Shown here piece after piece: positions 2,875 through 34,626 of a DNA stretch of 44,268 nucleotides. The notes beneath the pieces were generated by a model that worked only from the letters and a program-made list of their open reading frames with translations, was not told the DNA's origin and searched no databases. Numbering within the stretch: the first letter of the stretch is position 1; the number at the start of each line of letters is the position of its first letter. The stretch lies in IMG/VR virus record IMGVR_UViG_3300003322_000931, positions 1 to 44,268 of that record. One strand, 5' to 3'. The DNA is from a virus. The translations under genes and the position numbers were made by a program.

Positions 2875-3554
2875 CCGCCCTCAACATCTGTATCGGCTAC
2901 GACCAGCACGAAGCCGTCGCCTTCCACGTCCTCTCCCACTCGATCATGCGCCGCGCTTCCGGCCCCGTCACCATCACGCCGCTCTACCTGCCGTGGCTCG
3001 AAGCGTCCGGCGTGTACAAGCGCGAACGCGATCCCAACCAGTCGACCGACTTCACGTTTTCTCGCTTCCTGACACCGTGGCTGTCGCCCGGCCAGCGCTC
3101 CATCTTCATGGACTGCGACATGCTCTGCCTCGGCGACATCTACGAACTCGACCGGATGGCCCGCGACATGACCTGCGACGTGGCCGTCGTCAAGCACGAC
3201 TACACGCCAACTTCTACGGCCAAGTTCCTCAACCAGCCCCAGTCCTCGTACCCATGCAAGAACTGGTCCTCGCTCATGGTCTTCAACGGCCACCGCCAGC
3301 CCGTGCGCAACCTCACGCCTCGCTACGTCAACAACGCCTCCGCGATGGACCTGCACCAGTTCAAGTGGTGCGCGGACGGCGGCATCGGCGGCCTCCCCAT
3401 CGAATGGAACCACCTCGTCGGCGAATACCTGCCCAACCCCGAAGCCAAGCTCGTCCACTTCACGCTGGGCGGCCCATGGTTTCCCGAGTACGCAGACTGC
3501 GAATATGCCGATCATTGGCGGGAAGAACTTGCCCACGCGACATCCGCAGGATAA
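2871..3554 (+). CDS. GT8-like glycosyltransferase, 227 aa
   Basis: A GT-A fold enzyme: the N-terminus NICIGYDQHEAVAFHVL is the nucleotide-binding strand-helix, and MDCDMLCLGDI (80-90) is the DxD metal/nucleotide-sugar motif (D81, D83). The later segment with WCADGGIGGLP and the H near LVHFTLGGPW match GT8-type acceptor/metal residues. It probably transfers one sugar from a nucleotide donor. It starts by ATGA overlap with the previous gene. With the TPR transferase and the methyltransferase it makes a compact virion- or DNA-glycan cassette; the acceptor is not shown by the sequence. Confidence 0.8.
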   Translation: MTALNICIGYDQHEAVAFHVLSHSIMRRASGPVTITPLYLPWLEASGVYKRERDPNQSTDFTFSRFLTPWLSPGQRSIFMDCDMLCLGDIYELDRMARDMTCDVAVVKHDYTPTSTAKFLNQPQSSYPCKNWSSLMVFNGHRQPVRNLTPRYVNNASAMDLHQFKWCADGGIGGLPIEWNHLVGEYLPNPEAKLVHFTLGGPWFPEYADCEYADHWREELAHATSAG

Positions 3555-4374: not shown

Positions 4375-5856
4375 ATGAGCAAGATGATCCCCTTCGGCGA
4401 GTGGCTGCCCGACATGCCGCCACTCGGCAACAAGGGAGCTACCGTCGCCACCAACGTCATCGCCGACGCCAACTCGTACCTGCCATTTCCCTCGCTCGTA
4501 CCGTACTCGTCGCCGCTGGGCAGTCTCTGCAAGGGCGGCATCTACGCCATCGACACGGCAAGCAACACCTATAACTATGCGGGCGACGCGTCCGCGCTCT
4601 ACCGCCTCGTCGTCACCAGCTTCACGGCGGCGACGCGCCTCGTCGGCGGCGCCTATGCCCTCGGCCTCGACGAATACTGGGAATTCGCCCAGTGGGGCAA
4701 CACGGTCATGGCCGTCTCCGGCTACAACAACGCCACGCAGATCATCACAAGCGGTGCCGCCAACTTCGCCGACATGTCCCTCCCCCTGAAGTCCAAGCAC
4801 ATCACCGTGTTGCGCGACTTCGTCGTCATGGGCAACATCAGCGACAGCGCGGCCAACGCCTACCGTGTGCGCTGGTCCGCCATCAACAACCCGCTCGACT
4901 TTACGCCCGACCCGGCCACGCTCTCCGACTACCAAGACCTGCCTCCCGAAGGGGGCGTGATCCAGCGCATCCACGGCGGCGACGTCGCAACCGTCTTCCA
5001 GCAGCGCTCCATCTGGCGCATGCTGTTCGTCGGCGCCCCCCTCGTCTTCCAGTTCGACCGCATTCACAACGCCATCGGCCTCCTGCACCCACGCGCCAGC
5101 GTGCGCTACCAGCGCTTCGACTTCTTCCTCTCCGCCGAAGGCTTCTACATGTTCGACGGCATCGAACTCAAGCCCATCGGGCGCGGCAAGGTTGACCGCT
5201 TCTTCCTGTCCGACTTCCAGATCGCCAACGCCCACCGCGTCCACTGCGCCCTCGACACGACGCACAAGCTCGTCCTGTGGGCCTACCCCAGCAACAGCAG
5301 CATCGGCGGCAACCCGGACAAACTCCTCGCTTACTCGTGGGCCTTCGACCGCTGGACCCTCGTCACCGGCATCAACATCGAGTTGCTGCTCGAATCGATC
5401 AGCAGCGGCTACACGCTCGAATCGCTCGACGCCATCAGCCCCAGCCTCGACGCCCTCACCGTATCGCTGGACAACGAACAGTGGACGGGCGGCCAGATCA
5501 TCCTTGCTGCGTTCGACGCCACCCACCATCTCCAGCGCTTCAACGGCAGCGCGATGGCGGCGACCGTCACGACCGGCGAGTTCCAACTCTTCAAGGACAA
5601 GCGCGCCATGCTCACCGAAGTGCGGCCGTACGTCGAGGGCTTGAGCGCACAGGCAGCCATCGCCGTCATCAACCGCAACAACCTCACCGAGTCCGCAAGC
5701 GTAGGCACCGCCGACACCTACCCCAACGACACCGGCTTCATCCCCTGCCGGGACAACGCGCGCTACTTCCGCATCCGCCTCACAACGGACGCTGGCACCA
5801 ACTTCGTCCACCTCATCGGCGTCGACGTGACCGGCACCGTCGAAGGAGTCCGTTAA
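4375..5856 (+). CDS. packaged-DNA stabilisation / tail hub protein (P22 gp10-like), 493 aa
   Basis: A beta-rich protein starting FGEWLPDMPPLGNKGATVATN, where gp10-like proteins place their conserved N-terminal motif, followed by propeller-like repeats (segments such as GGVIQRIHGGDVATVF, FFLSAEGFYMFDG and LAYSWAFDRWTLV). Proteins of this kind form the hexameric hub that closes the portal channel and carries tailspikes. The start is the ATG at 4375, five bases after the adaptor stop. A longer open frame exists upstream but overlaps the adaptor. Its stop overlaps the tailspike start (TAATG). Confidence 0.8.
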   Translation: MSKMIPFGEWLPDMPPLGNKGATVATNVIADANSYLPFPSLVPYSSPLGSLCKGGIYAIDTASNTYNYAGDASALYRLVVTSFTAATRLVGGAYALGLDEYWEFAQWGNTVMAVSGYNNATQIITSGAANFADMSLPLKSKHITVLRDFVVMGNISDSAANAYRVRWSAINNPLDFTPDPATLSDYQDLPPEGGVIQRIHGGDVATVFQQRSIWRMLFVGAPLVFQFDRIHNAIGLLHPRASVRYQRFDFFLSAEGFYMFDGIELKPIGRGKVDRFFLSDFQIANAHRVHCALDTTHKLVLWAYPSNSSIGGNPDKLLAYSWAFDRWTLVTGINIELLLESISSGYTLESLDAISPSLDALTVSLDNEQWTGGQIILAAFDATHHLQRFNGSAMAATVTTGEFQLFKDKRAMLTEVRPYVEGLSAQAAIAVINRNNLTESASVGTADTYPNDTGFIPCRDNARYFRIRLTTDAGTNFVHLIGVDVTGTVEGVR

Positions 5857-10073: not shown

Positions 10074-10959
10074 AGGCGGAGGCGGCGGCTCGACCACGAC
10101 GGTCCAGAAAGCCGACCCATGGAGCGGGCTCCAAGGCCCCCTCCGTGATTTCTATTCGAACGCGCAAAACTGGTACAACAGCGGCGGCCCTCAGTACTTC
10201 CCCGGCGACACCGTCGCCGCACCGCGCGGCTTGCAGATAGATGCGCTTAACAAGGGCGCGGATATGGCCAGCGCCGGCCCTACCCAACTCATGAAGAACG
10301 CAGGCAGCACACTGGAAGCCACGGCGGGCGGAAAGTACCTGTCGCCCGACTCAAACCCGTACCTCGCGGGCATGTACCAAGCCGCCGCCGACCCCGTCGT
10401 CCGCAACTTCAAGGACGCGGTCACGCCCGGCATCGCCTCGCAGTTCGCCCTCGGCGGCCGACTCGGCAGCGGCGCCAACCAAGCCGCCTTCAACAACGCG
10501 ACGGCGACGCTGGGCCACACGCTCGGCGACATGGCCAACAACCTGTACGGCACCGCCTACGGCCAAGAGCGCAACCTCCAACAGCAGGCTAGCCTTGCCG
10601 CACCCGCGTTCGACCAAGCCAAGTACAACGACGTCAACAAGCTTCTCGGCATCGGCGAGTACCAGCAAAACCTCGCCCAGCAGCAGCTCGACCAAGGAAA
10701 GGCCCGCTGGGACTTCGAACAGAACAGGCCGCTCATGAACCTGCAAGCCCTCAACCAACTTTTGCAGGGCGGCAGCGTCTATGCGGGCAGCACCTCGACG
10801 GGCCGCAACTCCATGAACCGCAACCCGTTCGCTAGCGGCCTCGGCGGCGCCTTCATGACCAACGCCCTCGGCAACTCGATTGGCGGCGAGTTCGGCGGCA
10901 TGCTCGGCGGCCCGTGGGGCGCGCTGGGCGGCGCGCTGCTTGGCGGTCTCTTCGGCTAA
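10066..10959 (+). CDS. internal virion / ejection protein (gp14-like position), 297 aa
   Basis: Gly-rich start (MSKGGGGGSTTTVQKADPWS), Ala/Gln-rich helical middle (ERNLQQQASLAAPAFDQAKY), and a C-terminal Gly-rich hydrophobic stretch (GGEFGGMLGGPWGALGGALL) that could insert in a membrane. This composition is typical of proteins expelled from podovirus capsids to build the DNA-ejection channel. It overlaps the upstream gene by 8 nt, with AAGGAG before the ATG. Confidence 0.7.
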   Translation: MSKGGGGGSTTTVQKADPWSGLQGPLRDFYSNAQNWYNSGGPQYFPGDTVAAPRGLQIDALNKGADMASAGPTQLMKNAGSTLEATAGGKYLSPDSNPYLAGMYQAAADPVVRNFKDAVTPGIASQFALGGRLGSGANQAAFNNATATLGHTLGDMANNLYGTAYGQERNLQQQASLAAPAFDQAKYNDVNKLLGIGEYQQNLAQQQLDQGKARWDFEQNRPLMNLQALNQLLQGGSVYAGSTSTGRNSMNRNPFASGLGGAFMTNALGNSIGGEFGGMLGGPWGALGGALLGGLFG

Positions 10960-17940: not shown

Positions 17941-18165
17941 TCAGCCCACCTCCGCTCCGACCACGATGTCCGAGTCCACATACAGGCCGATGCGGTCCAT
18001 ACGGCAGTCGGCCGTTATCATGCAGCCGTGCCCATCCCTACGCACAACGCGGTAGCGCAGGCCCGCCGACTCGATACGCTGGATCGCAGCGCCAATCCGC
18101 ATTCCCTCGACATCCTCGCAAGCGCTCTTGGCAAGCTCCTGCAACTCATAGAAATTCCGGCTCAT
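17941..18165 (-). CDS. hypothetical, possibly I78-type inhibitor-like fold, 74 aa
   Basis: The segment RYRVVRRDGHGCMITADCRM followed by DRIGLYVDSDIVVGAEVG resembles the DYRPDRLNVxVDxxGxIxxVxCG pattern of I78 peptidase inhibitors, with a helix before it (GMRIGAAIQRIESAGL). This is a weak fold-level similarity. Start: ATG with GAGGAG upstream, overlapping the polymerase stop as ATGA. Confidence 0.55.
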   Translation of the reverse strand: MSRNFYELQELAKSACEDVEGMRIGAAIQRIESAGLRYRVVRRDGHGCMITADCRMDRIGLYVDSDIVVGAEVG

Positions 18166-20501
18166 GTCCAGCTCCTCTTCCCTTTCTTGCACGCGCCCCA
18201 CGACTCCGTCGACGTCGACAGCCCCAACGGGATGACGAGCGGGTCGTCGTAGGGGACGACGATCTTGCGCGCGCGCTCCATCAACGGCAGGACGCGCTCC
18301 TCGTACACTGTTGGGTACGAACCGACGACGCTATCATACATCTGTAGATATATGGAAACGCTGTCGATGGCATCGAACGCCATGTGGATTTTCGACGCGA
18401 CAATCGCAATGGTGGACTGCGGCACCCACGCCAGCGCCTGCGGCAGCAGGCCGTCCACGCGGTCGAAGAACGTCATCTCATATCCAAAAGCATTTCGTAC
18501 CGTTCGAGTAGTTTCAAGAGCACGCTGCACTCGTTTATGCCAGTCCAGTATTCCGGGGTGGGCGGCGAACCAACGTCTTTGGGCCATGTCAGCTTCATGA
18601 ACCGTGCTGCCGATAGCAATGGCGCATGTTCTAGGCTTACCGCCATAGTTAGTGAGATGAACGAACCTCTTAGCGAATTGTCGTTGATCCTCTGTCGGTG
18701 CACTTGTTCCGAAAATGTCCTTGGCGTTCTCGATGTGGATATCGACACTTTGTCCTCCTATGGTCTCTCGCATCTTCGCCTTCAGGTCCGCGTCGTCCGC
18801 CTCCCACACCACGACCTGTAGGTCGGCGCGCTCAAGGTCGCAGTCGAACATCGTGTGGCCGGTCGGCGGCACGAAGATGCCACGGAAGGCGCCGCTGATG
18901 TTGAGCAGGTTGCAGCCCCGGCCGAACGGGTTCTTGCTCGACGTCAGGCGAAAGGTCTCCGTGCCGCACGGCGAGAACGACGAGCGCACGAGGCCATCCG
19001 GGTCCAGCTTGGCGCGCAGCACGTTCGTCTGCTGGGACTTCAGCGAACGCCACTCGACAACCGCGCCAAGAACGTCGGCCCTTTCAGGATGCCACGCGAT
19101 GACTTGCGCCAGATCGTCATCTCCAGTGCCACCACCATCGGTTTTGGCCTTCGCACCACGCGCCGGTTTGCGGCAACCCCATTCCTTGTAGACCAAATCC
19201 CCAATCTGCTTAGGACTCGCAAGGTTGATCGCGCGCCCAGCCGCGTCGCATACAATGATTGCCTTCTCTTGTAGCTGCTCGTCAATCTGTGCATCAAGAC
19301 GCGCTGTCCGCTCGTTATCACGAATCACTCCCCTTCGTTGCATTGGATAGACATGGTTGTGACCGTACTCGATACGGTCGGCGAACTGCCCAACGAGCCC
19401 ACGGCTCGCCAGTGCCTTGCGCTGGCCCTGCGCCACTTCCCACGTGCGCACGACGTCAAGGCAGTTGTAGAGGAACAGGCTCTCGAAGTCCTTGAGGTTG
19501 GCCCAGTCGCGCGCATCCTCCTTCCAATAGCGATACCAGTCGCAGTACATCGACGCCAAGTGGCCCAGCGTGCGAGGCGTGCCCGGAAATAGGACGGATT
19601 GCGCGATCATCGTGTCGTGCGTCAGCCGTGGAACAAAGCCCCAGTTGTCGTCGAAGTAGGCTGTGTCGTAGATGAAGTTCTGGCCCACGACGTTGACACG
19701 TGGTGACGTCAGCATAGCCTCCAAGCGGCGCAGCACCAACTCCTTCTCGTAGGCCGTCCAGTACGCACCGTATTCCTCGCAGATGAACGGAATGCACATG
19801 GCCCGCGTCGCACTCGTCGCCAAGCCCACACACACGATCTGGCCCCGTGACGTCTCGACGTCGACGGCCACGTCGCCATCAAGCATGTCGATGAACTCGA
19901 TGGCTTCAGCTATCGTGGGGCGCCATGTGAACTGCCACTCCGGTTCCGGCTTGAACCCGCCGCGCATCCTCCGCACGACGCGCTGCTTCAGGTCGTGGAC
20001 GAGGTGCCCCCGCGACGGCCACTGGCGCAGAACGCTCGCCGGGTGCAACGTGGGCACGAACGGCCTGCCGTCAGGCAGGACGAGTTCGCTACCGCGCCAC
20101 GACGTGATGCCCCACTCGCCGGCGAGCGCCCACAGCGGCGTGTTGCCGAGGCCGACGATGACGCGTGGCTGCACACGGGCGATCTCCTCGCGCAGTTCGG
20201 CCAAGCCTTCCTCGACCAACTCGTTGTAGTAGCGGCCGTTCGCGCAGGGCCATTCGTTCTTCGTGCCCACGCCCTTCTTGTCGGTGAGCCACGCGCCGAT
20301 GTCGTTCGACGGCGGCCTGTACTTGCAGACGTTGGTGACGTAGCAGTCGCGCCGATTGATGCCGACTTCGCGCAGGATCGTATCGAGCAAGCGGCCCGCA
20401 GGGCCGACGAACGGCTTGCCCTCAAGCTCCTCGGTTTCGCCCGGCGCCTCGCCCACGATCATGACGCCGCCGCTCAGCCCATGGCCCTTAACCTTAATCA
20501 C
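18162..20501 (-). CDS. UDG - 3'-5' exonuclease - family A DNA polymerase fusion, 779 aa
   Basis: Residues 13-180 are a family 4-like uracil-DNA glycosylase: GEAPG (17-21), GKPFVGPAGRLLD, TNVCKYRPP and HPASVLR (153-159). C59 and C86 could be two of the four iron-sulfur ligands; the N-terminal CxxC pair is missing. Residues about 205-370 are the proofreading exonuclease (DVETS 214-218, NFIYDTAYFD, YNCLD). The polymerase follows: motif A D555-LERA-D560, motif B R607/K611/Y619, motif C YDS with D723. Compared with E. coli Pol I, E710 is Asp, F762 is His and the H-E around the motif C Asp are Tyr-Ser. Start is a GTG with GGAAGGGAG upstream and GTGA overlap. A UDG domain on a phage PolA is, from memory, also noted in SPO1. 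Confidence 0.9.
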   Translation of the reverse strand: MIKVKGHGLSGGVMIVGEAPGETEELEGKPFVGPAGRLLDTILREVGINRRDCYVTNVCKYRPPSNDIGAWLTDKKGVGTKNEWPCANGRYYNELVEEGLAELREEIARVQPRVIVGLGNTPLWALAGEWGITSWRGSELVLPDGRPFVPTLHPASVLRQWPSRGHLVHDLKQRVVRRMRGGFKPEPEWQFTWRPTIAEAIEFIDMLDGDVAVDVETSRGQIVCVGLATSATRAMCIPFICEEYGAYWTAYEKELVLRRLEAMLTSPRVNVVGQNFIYDTAYFDDNWGFVPRLTHDTMIAQSVLFPGTPRTLGHLASMYCDWYRYWKEDARDWANLKDFESLFLYNCLDVVRTWEVAQGQRKALASRGLVGQFADRIEYGHNHVYPMQRRGVIRDNERTARLDAQIDEQLQEKAIIVCDAAGRAINLASPKQIGDLVYKEWGCRKPARGAKAKTDGGGTGDDDLAQVIAWHPERADVLGAVVEWRSLKSQQTNVLRAKLDPDGLVRSSFSPCGTETFRLTSSKNPFGRGCNLLNISGAFRGIFVPPTGHTMFDCDLERADLQVVVWEADDADLKAKMRETIGGQSVDIHIENAKDIFGTSAPTEDQRQFAKRFVHLTNYGGKPRTCAIAIGSTVHEADMAQRRWFAAHPGILDWHKRVQRALETTRTVRNAFGYEMTFFDRVDGLLPQALAWVPQSTIAIVASKIHMAFDAIDSVSIYLQMYDSVVGSYPTVYEERVLPLMERARKIVVPYDDPLVIPLGLSTSTESWGACKKGKRSWT

Positions 20502-20680
20502 GTGTCGCTCCCTTCCGGCCAGTTGTGCAGCCACACCACGAAGTCAGACAACGCCCTATGAAACAGGTCGCGCTCCGGCTCATACCACTCGTCCATCGAT
20601 TGGCCCTTGGTAGCAAGGTACTCACCCATCAACTCCTCGATGTCGCCTGCCAGTTGCTCCCGAAATTGTTGGCTGCTCAT
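20498..20680 (-). CDS. hypothetical protein, 60 aa
   Basis: A helical acidic protein (MSSQQFREQLAGDIEELMGE) with Trp pairs near the C-terminus (VVWLHNWPEG). GGAGG lies before the ATG. It overlaps both neighbours by 4 nt (ATGA upstream, GTGA into the polymerase gene), so it is tightly coupled to polymerase expression. No family recognised. Confidence 0.7.
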   Translation of the reverse strand: MSSQQFREQLAGDIEELMGEYLATKGQSMDEWYEPERDLFHRALSDFVVWLHNWPEGSDT

Positions 20681-31439: not shown

Positions 31440-31673
31440 TCAGCTCCCCATCCTTCCCATTTCGTTGATCCGTGCTTGCGGCAACTCCACTGCATTGATG
31501 CCGCGCAAGTACTGACTGATGTGCTTGCTCGTCGTTACGCTGCACCTTGTGTCGGTCCGGAAATACGTCCCGGCGTGATACCCAGCAACCGGCGTCTCAT
31601 AGCTGAACAAGACTTCCGTTCCGTTGTCGAACTGTAACAACGTGCGGTTCGCTCCTAATTTGCGCACTTTCAT
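31440..31673 (-). CDS. small early protein (DUF8033-like), 77 aa
   Basis: MKVRKLGANRTLLQFDNGTE, then VLFSYETPVAGYHAGTYFRT and TSKHISQYLRG: this layout recurs in small proteins of unrelated phages (I believe grouped as DUF8033), function unknown. First gene of the leftward operon; GGGAGATTACC precedes the ATG. Confidence 0.7.
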   Translation of the reverse strand: MKVRKLGANRTLLQFDNGTEVLFSYETPVAGYHAGTYFRTDTRCSVTTSKHISQYLRGINAVELPQARINEMGRMGS

Positions 31674-31730
31674 GGTAATCTCCCATTTGTCCTATCGCCG
31701 TATTTCCATGTTCCCCTGTCCTACGATTCC

Positions 31731-31758
31731 AGTGTAGCCTCATTTCCACGCCGCGCAA
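31731..31758 (-). promoter_or_regulatory. main leftward early promoter TTGCGC-16-TACACT
   Basis: Minus strand CCTTGCGC, 16 bp, GC-TACACT (31736-31731), followed at 31720-31711 by GACAGGGGAA, the same 10-mer as after the promoter at 28359-28386. Start of transcription near 31724, about 50 nt before the first early gene. Confidence 0.7.
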
Positions 31759-31771
31759 GGACTATTTGCAC

Positions 31772-31948
31772 ATGAGCCTGCAACATTCCCACGAACAACG
31801 CCGCGAACAGGCCCAGCTCGGCCTATGCGCTGTTGCGTGCGTGGAGTTGTGCGCCGAAGTGGCCCTAGGTTGTGCGCTCGTGGGCATTGCGTGGTGCGCA
31901 TTGTTGGCCTTGCCGCGTGCGTGGATGCCTCTGCGGGCCAAGGAATAA
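31772..31948 (+). CDS. possible small membrane protein, 58 aa
   Basis: MSLQHSHEQRREQAQLGLCA then a Cys/Ala/Val-rich hydrophobic helix (CALVGIAWCALLALP) and a basic end. AAGG lies eleven bases upstream. It is the only frame of note on this strand between the early promoter and parS. It could be a divergent regulator or membrane peptide; coding status uncertain. Confidence 0.4.
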   Translation: MSLQHSHEQRREQAQLGLCAVACVELCAEVALGCALVGIAWCALLALPRAWMPLRAKE

Positions 31949-32035
31949 GCCTATCCAAGGGTTTAAATGGACCGTTCCATGTGTCGCGCCATCCCGCGCG
32001 TTGCGCGTCTCCTAGGGCCGCTAAATCAGTCATCA

Positions 32036-32151
32036 GGTTAGTGACCACTAACACGCTGTTTTGGGTTGTATAGACAACCTATGATGCTCCCCGTACCTCA
32101 TCCGTAACCACTACTGACGCATCGGTCAGTAAGCTAATGACTCGCGAGTCA
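32036..32151. promoter_or_regulatory. cluster of palindromes (operator region)
   Basis: Four dyads: GTTAGTG-AC-CACTAAC (32036-32051), GGTTGT-ATAG-ACAACC (32063-32078), ACTGAC-GCATCG-GTCAGT (32113-32130) and the perfect 14-mer TGACTCGCGAGTCA (32138-32151). GTCAGTAAG is repeated directly at 32125-32133 and 32148-32156. Such a set beside divergent transcription suggests several repressor or initiator sites. The protein is unknown; the HTH protein at 21876-22109 is one candidate. Confidence 0.7.
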
Positions 32152-32163
32152 GTAAGGCTCTCG

Positions 32164-32322
32164 ATGTTCCACGTGAAACAGTGCGGCGATGGTCGATGGG
32201 CAATTGCTGCGGGGCCATGGCGCTGCGAAAAGGGGGGTGCCCGGCCTTCGGGACTCCGGTGGGGGGAGTGTGAGGATGACTATCCAAGGCCCTACGCGGA
32301 ATTTTTTTGGGACAGCGTATAG
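32164..32322 (+). CDS. possible 52-aa protein starting on the parS sequence
   Basis: Frame starting MFHVKQCGDGRWAIAAGPWR and ending EFFWDSV. AAGG is seven bases upstream of the ATG. MFHVKQ is what the parS sequence encodes in this frame. The composition is plausible for a protein but there is no second line of support, and the site itself explains the conserved start. Confidence 0.3.
   Translation: MFHVKQCGDGRWAIAAGPWRCEKGGARPSGLRWGECEDDYPRPYAEFFWDSV
32165..32180. promoter_or_regulatory. parS: parS centromere sequence (ParB/Spo0J binding site)
   Basis: TGTTCCACGTGAAACA is a perfect match to the 16-bp bacterial chromosomal parS consensus bound by ParB. It lies between divergent transcription units, just after the palindrome cluster. 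No parA or parB gene is seen in the window, so the host ParB would be the binder. Confidence 0.85.
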
Positions 32323-32339
32323 CGTGTTCAATAACTCTA

Positions 32340-32375
32340 GGGGCATTGCCCCGCCGCACGCCGGCGTGCTATGCT
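32340..32375 (+). promoter_or_regulatory. rightward late promoter TTGCCC-18-TATGCT with operators
   Basis: TTGCCC (32346-32351) lies inside GGGGCATTGCCCC (32340-32352), and GCACGCCGGCGTGC (32356-32369), a perfect 14-bp palindrome, fills the space to TATGCT (32370-32375). A protein on either palindrome would block RNA polymerase. About 270 nt of leader precede the small terminase gene. The alternative is a terminator-like pair of hairpins. Confidence 0.6.
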
Positions 32376-32508
32376 CGGCCAGCGCCTCTTGCTTAACGAA
32401 CCTAGCCACCCGGCAACCGAGCCAGCCCGGCCAACATGCGTGATGGACTGTGGGGCTGGAACCGCATCTCGGCACAGGCGGACAGAAGGAGGCGCACCCG
32501 ACAAACAG

Positions 32509-32524
32509 TTGAACAGTTGTTCAA
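32509..32524. promoter_or_regulatory. 16-bp palindrome TTGAACA-GT-TGTTCAA
   Basis: Dyad of 7-bp arms with a 2-bp spacer in the leader of the terminase operon, overlapping a direct repeat of ACAGTTG. It could be a repressor site or a small-terminase (pac) recognition site. It has no T-run, so it is not a terminator. Confidence 0.5.
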
Positions 32525-32646
32525 ATCCGCAAGCGCCAGCCCCACACGTTTCGAAACCGTGCAAAGGCAGCCCGAGCGGTAGCCCGCCGAGGGGGCAGGC
32601 CCATCCAGTGTCCCGGAATTGCTGGCAGGCCACATAGGAGTGCATC

Positions 32647-33183
32647 ATGTCCAAGCGTCGAGCCCACTACTGCGTCAACATCGCCAAGCGCCTCTGCGAG
32701 TACATCGCGCTGGGCCACGGCCTCCCCAAGGCCCTTGAGTTGACGGGCGGCCTCGCCCCGTCGATCCCGATGTTCTATCGCTGGCTGGAGGAGTACCCCG
32801 AGTTCCTTGCGATGTACCGCCGCGCCCGCGAGTTCCAAGCCCACACCCATGCGGACCGCATCCTCGAAATGGCCGAACTCGCCATCGAAGACCCCAAGCG
32901 CGTCCCCGCCTACCGGTTGGCGGCGGACATCTTCAAGTGGAACGCCGAGATGCGCCACCCCGAGACCTACAGCCCGAAGGCCGCGCAGTCCGTGCCGCAC
33001 AAGCCCAAGACGCCCGAACAGGTCAAGGAAGAGATCGCGCGGCTCCAGAAAGAACTCGGTATCCCGGTCATGCCGCAGCCCGGCCTCGTCACCGCCCCAC
33101 GCCAGAACGCCGACAAGATCGACAAGCGCGGCGCCGGCGGTCCCGAGGCCCCGCCCCCAAATCTGAAAGTTATCGGGAAGTAA
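32647..33183 (+). CDS. terS: terminase small subunit, 178 aa
   Basis: The helix-turn-helix-like N-terminus (AKRLCEYIALGHGLPKALEL, SIPMFYRWLEEYPEFLAMYR) and the basic helix REFQAHTHADRILEMAELAI match small terminases that recognise phage DNA. A long Pro/Lys-rich tail contains EQVKEEIARLQKELGI. Immediately upstream of the large terminase. AGGAG before the ATG. Confidence 0.8.
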   Translation: MSKRRAHYCVNIAKRLCEYIALGHGLPKALELTGGLAPSIPMFYRWLEEYPEFLAMYRRAREFQAHTHADRILEMAELAIEDPKRVPAYRLAADIFKWNAEMRHPETYSPKAAQSVPHKPKTPEQVKEEIARLQKELGIPVMPQPGLVTAPRQNADKIDKRGAGGPEAPPPNLKVIGK

Positions 33184-33186
33184 ACG

Positions 33187-34626
33187 GTGGACAGCCACGA
33201 CATGATGCTGCGCAAGCACGCCAAGATGGCGCGGCTGGAGGAGTTGCGGCAGAACTACGGCATGATGTTCTACCAGCCGTACGCCAAGCAGCGCGAGTTC
33301 CACGCCCGTGGCGCCCAGTACCGCGAGCGGTTGCTGATGGCGGGCAATAAGCTGGGCAAGACGTTCAGCGCCGGGTTCGAGGTCGGCTACCACGTCACCG
33401 GCCTCTACCCCGAGTGGTGGACCGGCCACCGCTTCACCCGGCAGAACCGGGGCTGGGTCGGCAGCGTGACGTCGGAACTGACGCGCGACGGCGCCCAGCG
33501 TATCCTCCTCGGCAACATCGGCCGCTGGGGAACGGGCTGCATCCCCAAGGACTTGATCCTCGACATCAAGCGGGCGCGGGGCGTGCCGGACGCCGTCGAA
33601 ACCATCCTCGTGCAGCACATGTGCGGCGACGTCTCGCAAATTACGTTCAAGGCATACTCCGATGGCCGGGAGGCGTGGCAAGCGGAAGACCTTGAGTGGG
33701 TGTGGTTCGATGAGGAGCCGCCGCAGGACATCTACGTTGAAGGACTGACCCGGACCAACAACACGTGCGGCCCCGTCTTCCTGACGTTCACGCCGCTGCT
33801 CGGCATGTCGGACGTCGTGATCCGGTTCCCCCGCCCCGAAATGGGCGAGACCCACCCCGACCGCATCATCACCAACATGACCATCGACGACGTCGAGCAC
33901 TACACCGACGAACAGAAGGCGAAGATCATCGAGGGCTACCCGCCGCATGAGCGTGAGGCCCGCGCCAAGGGCATCCCGATGCTGGGCAGCGGCCGCATCT
34001 TCCCCGTCGCCGAAGACGTCATCAGCGAACCCACGCTGCCGAGCGTACCGCAGCACTGGAAGAGGGTCGCTGGGCTCGACTTCGGCTGGGACCACCCCAC
34101 GGCGGCCGTCATGCTCGTCTACGATCCCGACGCCGACTGCATCCACGTGCGCCACACCCACCGCCTCAAGGAGGCGACGCCTCTCATCCACAGCGCCGCC
34201 ATTAAGCCGTGGGGCACGACGTGGATTCCCGTGGCGTGGCCGCACGACGGCTACTCACACGACAAGGGCAGCGGCAAGGGCATCGCACAGCAGTACCGCG
34301 AACTCGACATCAAGATGCTCGACGAACATGCGCAGTACCCGGACAAGCGGGGCAACGGCGTCGAGGACGGCCTCACCGAAATGCTGCAACGGATGCAGAC
34401 GGGCCGCTTCAAGGTAGACGAGAACCTGACGCAGTGGTGGGAAGAATTTAGGATGTACCACCGCAAGGATGGCGAGGTGGTGAAGGAGCGCGACGACCTG
34501 ATGAGTGCCACACGCTACGCGATGATGATGCTACGATACGCAGTGACCGGCGACGAGGAGCCCGCGCCCATCGACCGCTACAAGCGGTATCGTGCGCGAC
34601 CGGCCGGTTCATGGATGAGCGCCTGA
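33187..34626 (+). CDS. terL: terminase large subunit, 479 aa
   Basis: ATPase: Walker A AGNKLGKT (52-59), Walker B WVWFDEE (171-177), and coupling residues around FLTFTPLLG. Nuclease: LDFGWDHP (297-304) with the first catalytic Asp and later acidic strands (ERDDLMSATRYAMMML). It pumps DNA into the prohead through the portal and cuts it. Starts at a GTG four bases after the small subunit stop; an ATG at 33202 is possible. A terminator overlaps its stop codon. Confidence 0.9.
   Translation: MDSHDMMLRKHAKMARLEELRQNYGMMFYQPYAKQREFHARGAQYRERLLMAGNKLGKTFSAGFEVGYHVTGLYPEWWTGHRFTRQNRGWVGSVTSELTRDGAQRILLGNIGRWGTGCIPKDLILDIKRARGVPDAVETILVQHMCGDVSQITFKAYSDGREAWQAEDLEWVWFDEEPPQDIYVEGLTRTNNTCGPVFLTFTPLLGMSDVVIRFPRPEMGETHPDRIITNMTIDDVEHYTDEQKAKIIEGYPPHEREARAKGIPMLGSGRIFPVAEDVISEPTLPSVPQHWKRVAGLDFGWDHPTAAVMLVYDPDADCIHVRHTHRLKEATPLIHSAAIKPWGTTWIPVAWPHDGYSHDKGSGKGIAQQYRELDIKMLDEHAQYPDKRGNGVEDGLTEMLQRMQTGRFKVDENLTQWWEEFRMYHRKDGEVVKERDDLMSATRYAMMMLRYAVTGDEEPAPIDRYKRYRARPAGSWMSA

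Follow-up and report, generated by a model that had tools for sequence, protein, structure and literature searches.

An exact parS sequence in a phage genome lacking ParA and ParB: a predicted binding site for the ParB of the host

Why would a phage without partition genes carry a perfect copy of the centromere sequence bound by bacterial ParB? The question arises from one site in the window, the whole 44,268-bp stretch analysed here, which is an entire IMG/VR virus record, classed as 'linear' and devoid of end repeats. A whole-window motif search located TGTTCCACGTGAAACA at 32165..32180 on the plus strand, an exact match to the 16-bp parS consensus TGTTYCACGTGRAACA; its own complement apart, no second site with three or fewer mismatches to TGTTCCACGTGAAACA was found in the 44,268 bp. 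Under a first-order Markov model fitted to the window, TGTTCCACGTGAAACA itself is expected 1.4e-5 times on either strand, and any version of TGTTYCACGTGRAACA 2.9e-5 times. The first-pass annotation had reported the exact 16-mer, the improbability of a chance match and a location at the hub between leftward and rightward transcription, and all of these were confirmed, with no credible gene among the codon-usage gene calls in the hub and nothing coded between 31673, where a leftward gene starts, and 32647, where TerS starts. The features of the region are the following:

31440..31673, minus strand: first leftward gene at the hub edge, phrog_5643 (gene annotation)
31674..32646, no strand: 973-bp non-coding hub with divergent transcription units on either side (codon-usage gene calls)
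32111..32156, no strand: tandem pair of operator-like dyads, each of 23 bp: TACTGAC..GTCAGTA and TGACTCGCGAGTCA (repeat search)
32165..32180, plus strand: orphan parS, predicted ParB nucleation site (exact match; same hub in L003, L005 and L409; word present four times in phi29)
32227..32240, with the T-run region to 32310, plus strand: hub element GAAAAGGGGGGTGC, followed by a T-run (alignment)
32647..33183, plus strand: terminase small subunit TerS, phrog_1482 (gene annotation)
33187..34626, plus strand: terminase large subunit TerL, the anchor in the search for relatives (gene annotation, relatives search)

To the left of the hub runs a leftward early block coding for a UDG-exonuclease-PolA polymerase, an SSB, a Sak4-type annealing protein, an exonuclease and a primase, and to its right a rightward terS-terL-portal block. 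The polymerase is a single 790-aa fusion protein (18162-20534) that combines a family A DNA polymerase with a uracil-DNA glycosylase and a 3'-5' exonuclease. Within the hub, the operator-like dyads stop 8 bp before parS. The hub element that follows parS, in the form AAAAGGGGGGT, is common to the eight aligned hubs of the terminase clade described below, whether parS is present or absent (window, L002, L003, L005 and L218-L221), and together with the T-run it may be a promoter, a terminator or a pac site. The motif GTTGTATAGACAAC followed by TATGATG, a dyad beside a possible -10 box, occurs both in the window (32067-32090) and in L218 near 4157. Searches of the window hub found no match to a sigma-70 promoter and no RNA families or tRNA genes, and named phages gave no useful DNA match to the hub sequence. 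The hubs of L218 (4590-4640) and L221 (2340-2406) contain tRNA-like 3' ends (GGTTCGA..CC..CCACCA) with no tRNA gene called.

Partition and integration functions were sought with profile models that do find matches in all control genomes or in most of them. Neither the ParB_N and parB_part models nor the ParA-type AAA_31 model has a match in the record, in line with the claim of the first-pass annotation that the phage has no ParA or ParB, and the Phage_integrase model for tyrosine integrases has none either. Since the record is linear and without end repeats, a small piece may be missing and these absences are not absolute. The window thus shows neither the phage-encoded ParB nor the phage-encoded ParA of a ParABS phage-plasmid, nor the tyrosine integrase of an integrating temperate phage; what it has is an exact parS with ParA and ParB of its own absent, that is, an orphan phage parS.

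A clade whose members are 57-75% identical in TerL was collected by TerL and TerS searches, and parS lies in the non-coding gap upstream of the terminase genes in four of its nine inspectable hubs, those of the window and of the following relatives:

L003: TGTTCCACGTGGAACA at 1615, 255 bp before TerS, same non-coding hub
L005: TGTTTCACGTGAAACA at 483, 433 bp before TerS, same non-coding hub
L409: TGTTCCACGTGAAACA at 4546, in the hub, plus TGTTTCACGTGAAACA at 3342 in an intergenic gap

The three clade versions all fit the ParB consensus, with variation confined to the T/C and A/G positions, and outside parS and the AAAAGGGGGGT element the hubs are barely alignable. As about 1e-6 sites are expected per hub, the three further occurrences cannot be due to chance. 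The conservation at this locus that the first-pass annotation had proposed to look for therefore holds for L003, L005 and L409 and fails for L002, L218, L219, L220 and L221, five clade hubs that are kept with parS absent from them. This is in part the outcome named there as refuting, and it indicates a site that comes and goes rather than a fixed one. L219 and L220 are the nearest TerL relatives of the window. In the TerL tree, several forks of which are weakly supported, parS-positive phages are scattered among parS-negative sisters, a distribution that points to repeated gain or loss. Another relative, L463, carries a consensus parS within an ORF, outside any hub. No consensus parS was found in 80 distant TerL relatives from the first alignment search (0.72 Mb) or in 80 relatives from bacterial genomes (1.14 Mb), where absence from prophages is suggestive only, so parS does not characterise this terminase family as a whole. 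A search of genome contigs with the single TerL returned no match. The closest prophage relatives (TerL 50-58%) reside mainly in Alpha- and Betaproteobacteria, and at this degree of identity they tentatively suggest that the host of the window is probably an alpha- or betaproteobacterium.

The signal is not limited to this clade. The exact window word TGTTCCACGTGAAACA has at least 120 matches in IMG/VR, and a scan with TGTTNCACGTGNAACA, in which both N positions are free, likewise gave at least 120. Because the parS counts are minimum values, the excess was gauged solely by the internal control at the N positions. Among the matches listed, 114 contigs have Y/R at the free positions vs 7 with anything else, which, for classes comprising 4 and 12 of the 16 words, represents an excess per word of about 49-fold for the consensus over its near-variants. 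All 62 of the listed sites outside ORFs are of the consensus type and none of the other, and coding constraint as the source of the Y/R excess is ruled out by this non-coding subset. In ORFs longer than 150 aa the listed matches include 39 consensus vs 5 other sites, in unrelated proteins, and the non-coding sites among them number 64 observed vs 18 expected (3.5x). A reversed-word control gave 1 match and was judged unfair because its core is GTGCAC; its place was taken by the internal control and by TGTTCCAGCTGAAACA, which keeps the arms around a CAGCTG core and occurs 58 times in the full collection. Among the matches listed, parS-bearing records of at least 30 kb mostly lack ParB_N (46/50) and AAA_31 (49/50), and ParB_N is also absent from 27/27 control records. 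Tyrosine integrase is absent in 49 of 51 parS-bearing records, and none of the 27 control records exceeds the cut-off; an integrase depletion specific to parS-bearing records was accordingly dismissed.

The closest precedent is Bacillus phage phi29 (L547, Salasmaviridae), with four exact copies of TGTTTCACGTGGAACA, the complement of the window word, at 10445, 15903, 17243 and 18760, in a genome where 4e-5 consensus sites are expected by chance. They lie within genes or at their ends, away from the main promoter hub, and the stop codon of the packaging ATPase gene 16 is immediately followed by the third copy. Two sites each are present in B103, Goe1 and BSP11 and three in Chedec 11, Goe1 being also among the matches of the IMG/VR scan. 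A parB_part profile search found no ParB in phi29 or Goe1. The parS sequence is said to have been discussed by Meijer et al. in 2005. In a passage of PMC9437464 that cites Meijer 2005, the host Spo0J, the ParB of Bacillus, is described as carrying the phi29 genome into spores, an entrapment for which phi29 requires it. The window resembles phi29, a virulent phage, in bearing the same exact chromosomal-type word in the absence of ParA and ParB. The two differ in that phi29 has a spore-forming host and several sites across a 19-kb protein-primed genome, whereas in the window a single site lies in a divergent hub, and this phage has a P22-type terminase and prophage relatives in Proteobacteria; moreover, host ParB use is stated for phi29 in that passage, while for the window it is predicted from sequence.

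The site is present, it is maintained by selection, and the phage lacks ParA and ParB. With high confidence, TGTTCCACGTGAAACA would be an orphan parS that is bound by the host ParB and kept by selection, specific binding being predicted from the identity of the sequence. The proposal of the first-pass annotation that the phage borrows the ParB of its host gains support from the hubs of the relatives, the IMG/VR statistics and phi29, a precedent that the annotation does not name. The uses it suggested, namely nucleoid placement, an unintegrated episome, ParB titration and silencing, are reasonable candidates. Many viruses with parS but no partition genes probably draw likewise on the segregation machinery of their hosts, as shown for phi29. 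Going by the known biology of ParB, the host protein would bind the hub parS after infection, close into a CTP-bound clamp and slide across the neighbouring hub and operons, and phage DNA would then be presented to host ParA and SMC like an origin region. In this manner it might be given a place on the nucleoid and be distributed between the daughter cells, so that in slow hosts lysis could be put off or a carrier state arise; the window sequence bears no sign of a stable carrier state. Provided that ParB binds, the chance that the benefit consists in such positioning or partition falls just short of even.

The site might also serve something other than partition, or not be a ParB site at all. 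A transcription switch, with parS-loaded ParB clamps covering the divergent hub promoters and repressing early or late genes for as long as ParB is not diluted by phage copies, would agree with the hub location of parS in all four parS-positive clade members, with the dyads adjoining it in the window and with the repression by Pseudomonas aeruginosa ParB of promoters next to parS3/parS4 (PMC5521831). Nevertheless, among the matches listed most viral sites are found within called ORFs or between tandem genes, just 5 of the 64 non-coding ones occupying divergent gaps; the phi29 sites likewise avoid its main promoter hub, and the window hub gave no sigma-70 match. This free placement in phages at large favours a use independent of promoters. 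The switch is a serious rival, if an unlikely one. Titration, by which replicated phage copies would soak up ParB, free SMC and halt host segregation to the profit of the phage, has a similarly small probability. One site multiplied by many phage copies would exceed the few chromosomal sites, and incompatibility through parS is known for SGI1 and IncC (PMC10954446); a sponge should however appear as clusters of sites, yet most of the 50 parS-bearing records have one, and early in infection a single site would take up little ParB. If ParB binds, a benefit other than positioning or partition, silencing and titration is improbable.

That a non-ParB regulator of phage or host uses the palindrome as its operator, the resemblance to parS being incidental, finds some backing in the different palindromes of the L218 (GTCTTATATAAGAC) and L221 (ATTGTGCACAAT) hubs. 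This is very unlikely, since unrelated phages have the exact consensus in common, down to the Y/R positions at which variation is tolerated. A chance match or host contamination is scarcely credible: although a 16-mer of similar composition, the TGTTCCAGCTGAAACA control, does recur in the collection as a whole, chance is contradicted by hub conservation and by the internal excess among the matches listed. Contamination is opposed by the genes adjoining parS in viral records, which include terminases and portals, and by the positions of the sites, mostly away from contig ends.

Binding by the host ParB, the preferred reading, has partial parallels in other systems. One chromosomal parS together with parAB stabilises an unstable plasmid (PMC7022226, PMC4368675), and alpha- and betaproteobacterial examples bear the same chromosomal parS consensus as the window (PMC7022226). 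SGI1 rides on the ParABS of its helper plasmid by means of parS mimics (PMC10954446); like the phage as read here, it is a mobile element with parS-type sites served by the ParB of another replicon, but the ParB exploited is that of a plasmid (IncC) and not a chromosomal one. The plasmid-prophages P1 and N15, mycobacteriophages and Mic1 are also phage genomes bearing parS, although these have ParA/ParB genes and sites of their own (PMC7156551) and the window encodes neither protein. Alphaproteobacterial phages with CtrA boxes, for which lytic deferment has been proposed, similarly carry sites for a host cell-cycle protein in large intergenic regions (PMC9437464); the host protein differs, CtrA being a transcription factor.

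No description of orphan parS in phages at large was found in the openly licensed literature searched. Orphan phage parS is already known from phi29, and what is new is probably the breadth of the pattern and its extension to likely proteobacterial phages. Whether host ParB use through an orphan parS is a general strategy, repeatedly gained and lost, of phages without integrase or ParABS in non-sporulating hosts, providing either a switch that senses CTP and the cell cycle or a ParB-borne carrier state in which phage DNA is positioned and inherited as a chromosome would be, is evenly balanced. If so, viruses without partition genes would keep a host centromere sequence and, outside sporulation, contact between phage and host would commonly run through chromosome segregation proteins. 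Orphan parS could then account for the persistence of integrase-less phages as pseudolysogens, and it offers a sequence signal for finding them.

Two further observations concern other records with parS. In the related contigs L235 (4801-5323) and L237 (6481-6669), three perfect parS copies lie in a repeat-rich gap, the first starting directly behind the stop codon of the TerS ORF, and the L235 gap also holds two copies with one mismatch. In the parS-bearing virus record G027 (L112), the TerL frame contains six in-frame TGA codons, which suggests that its host reads TGA as Trp.
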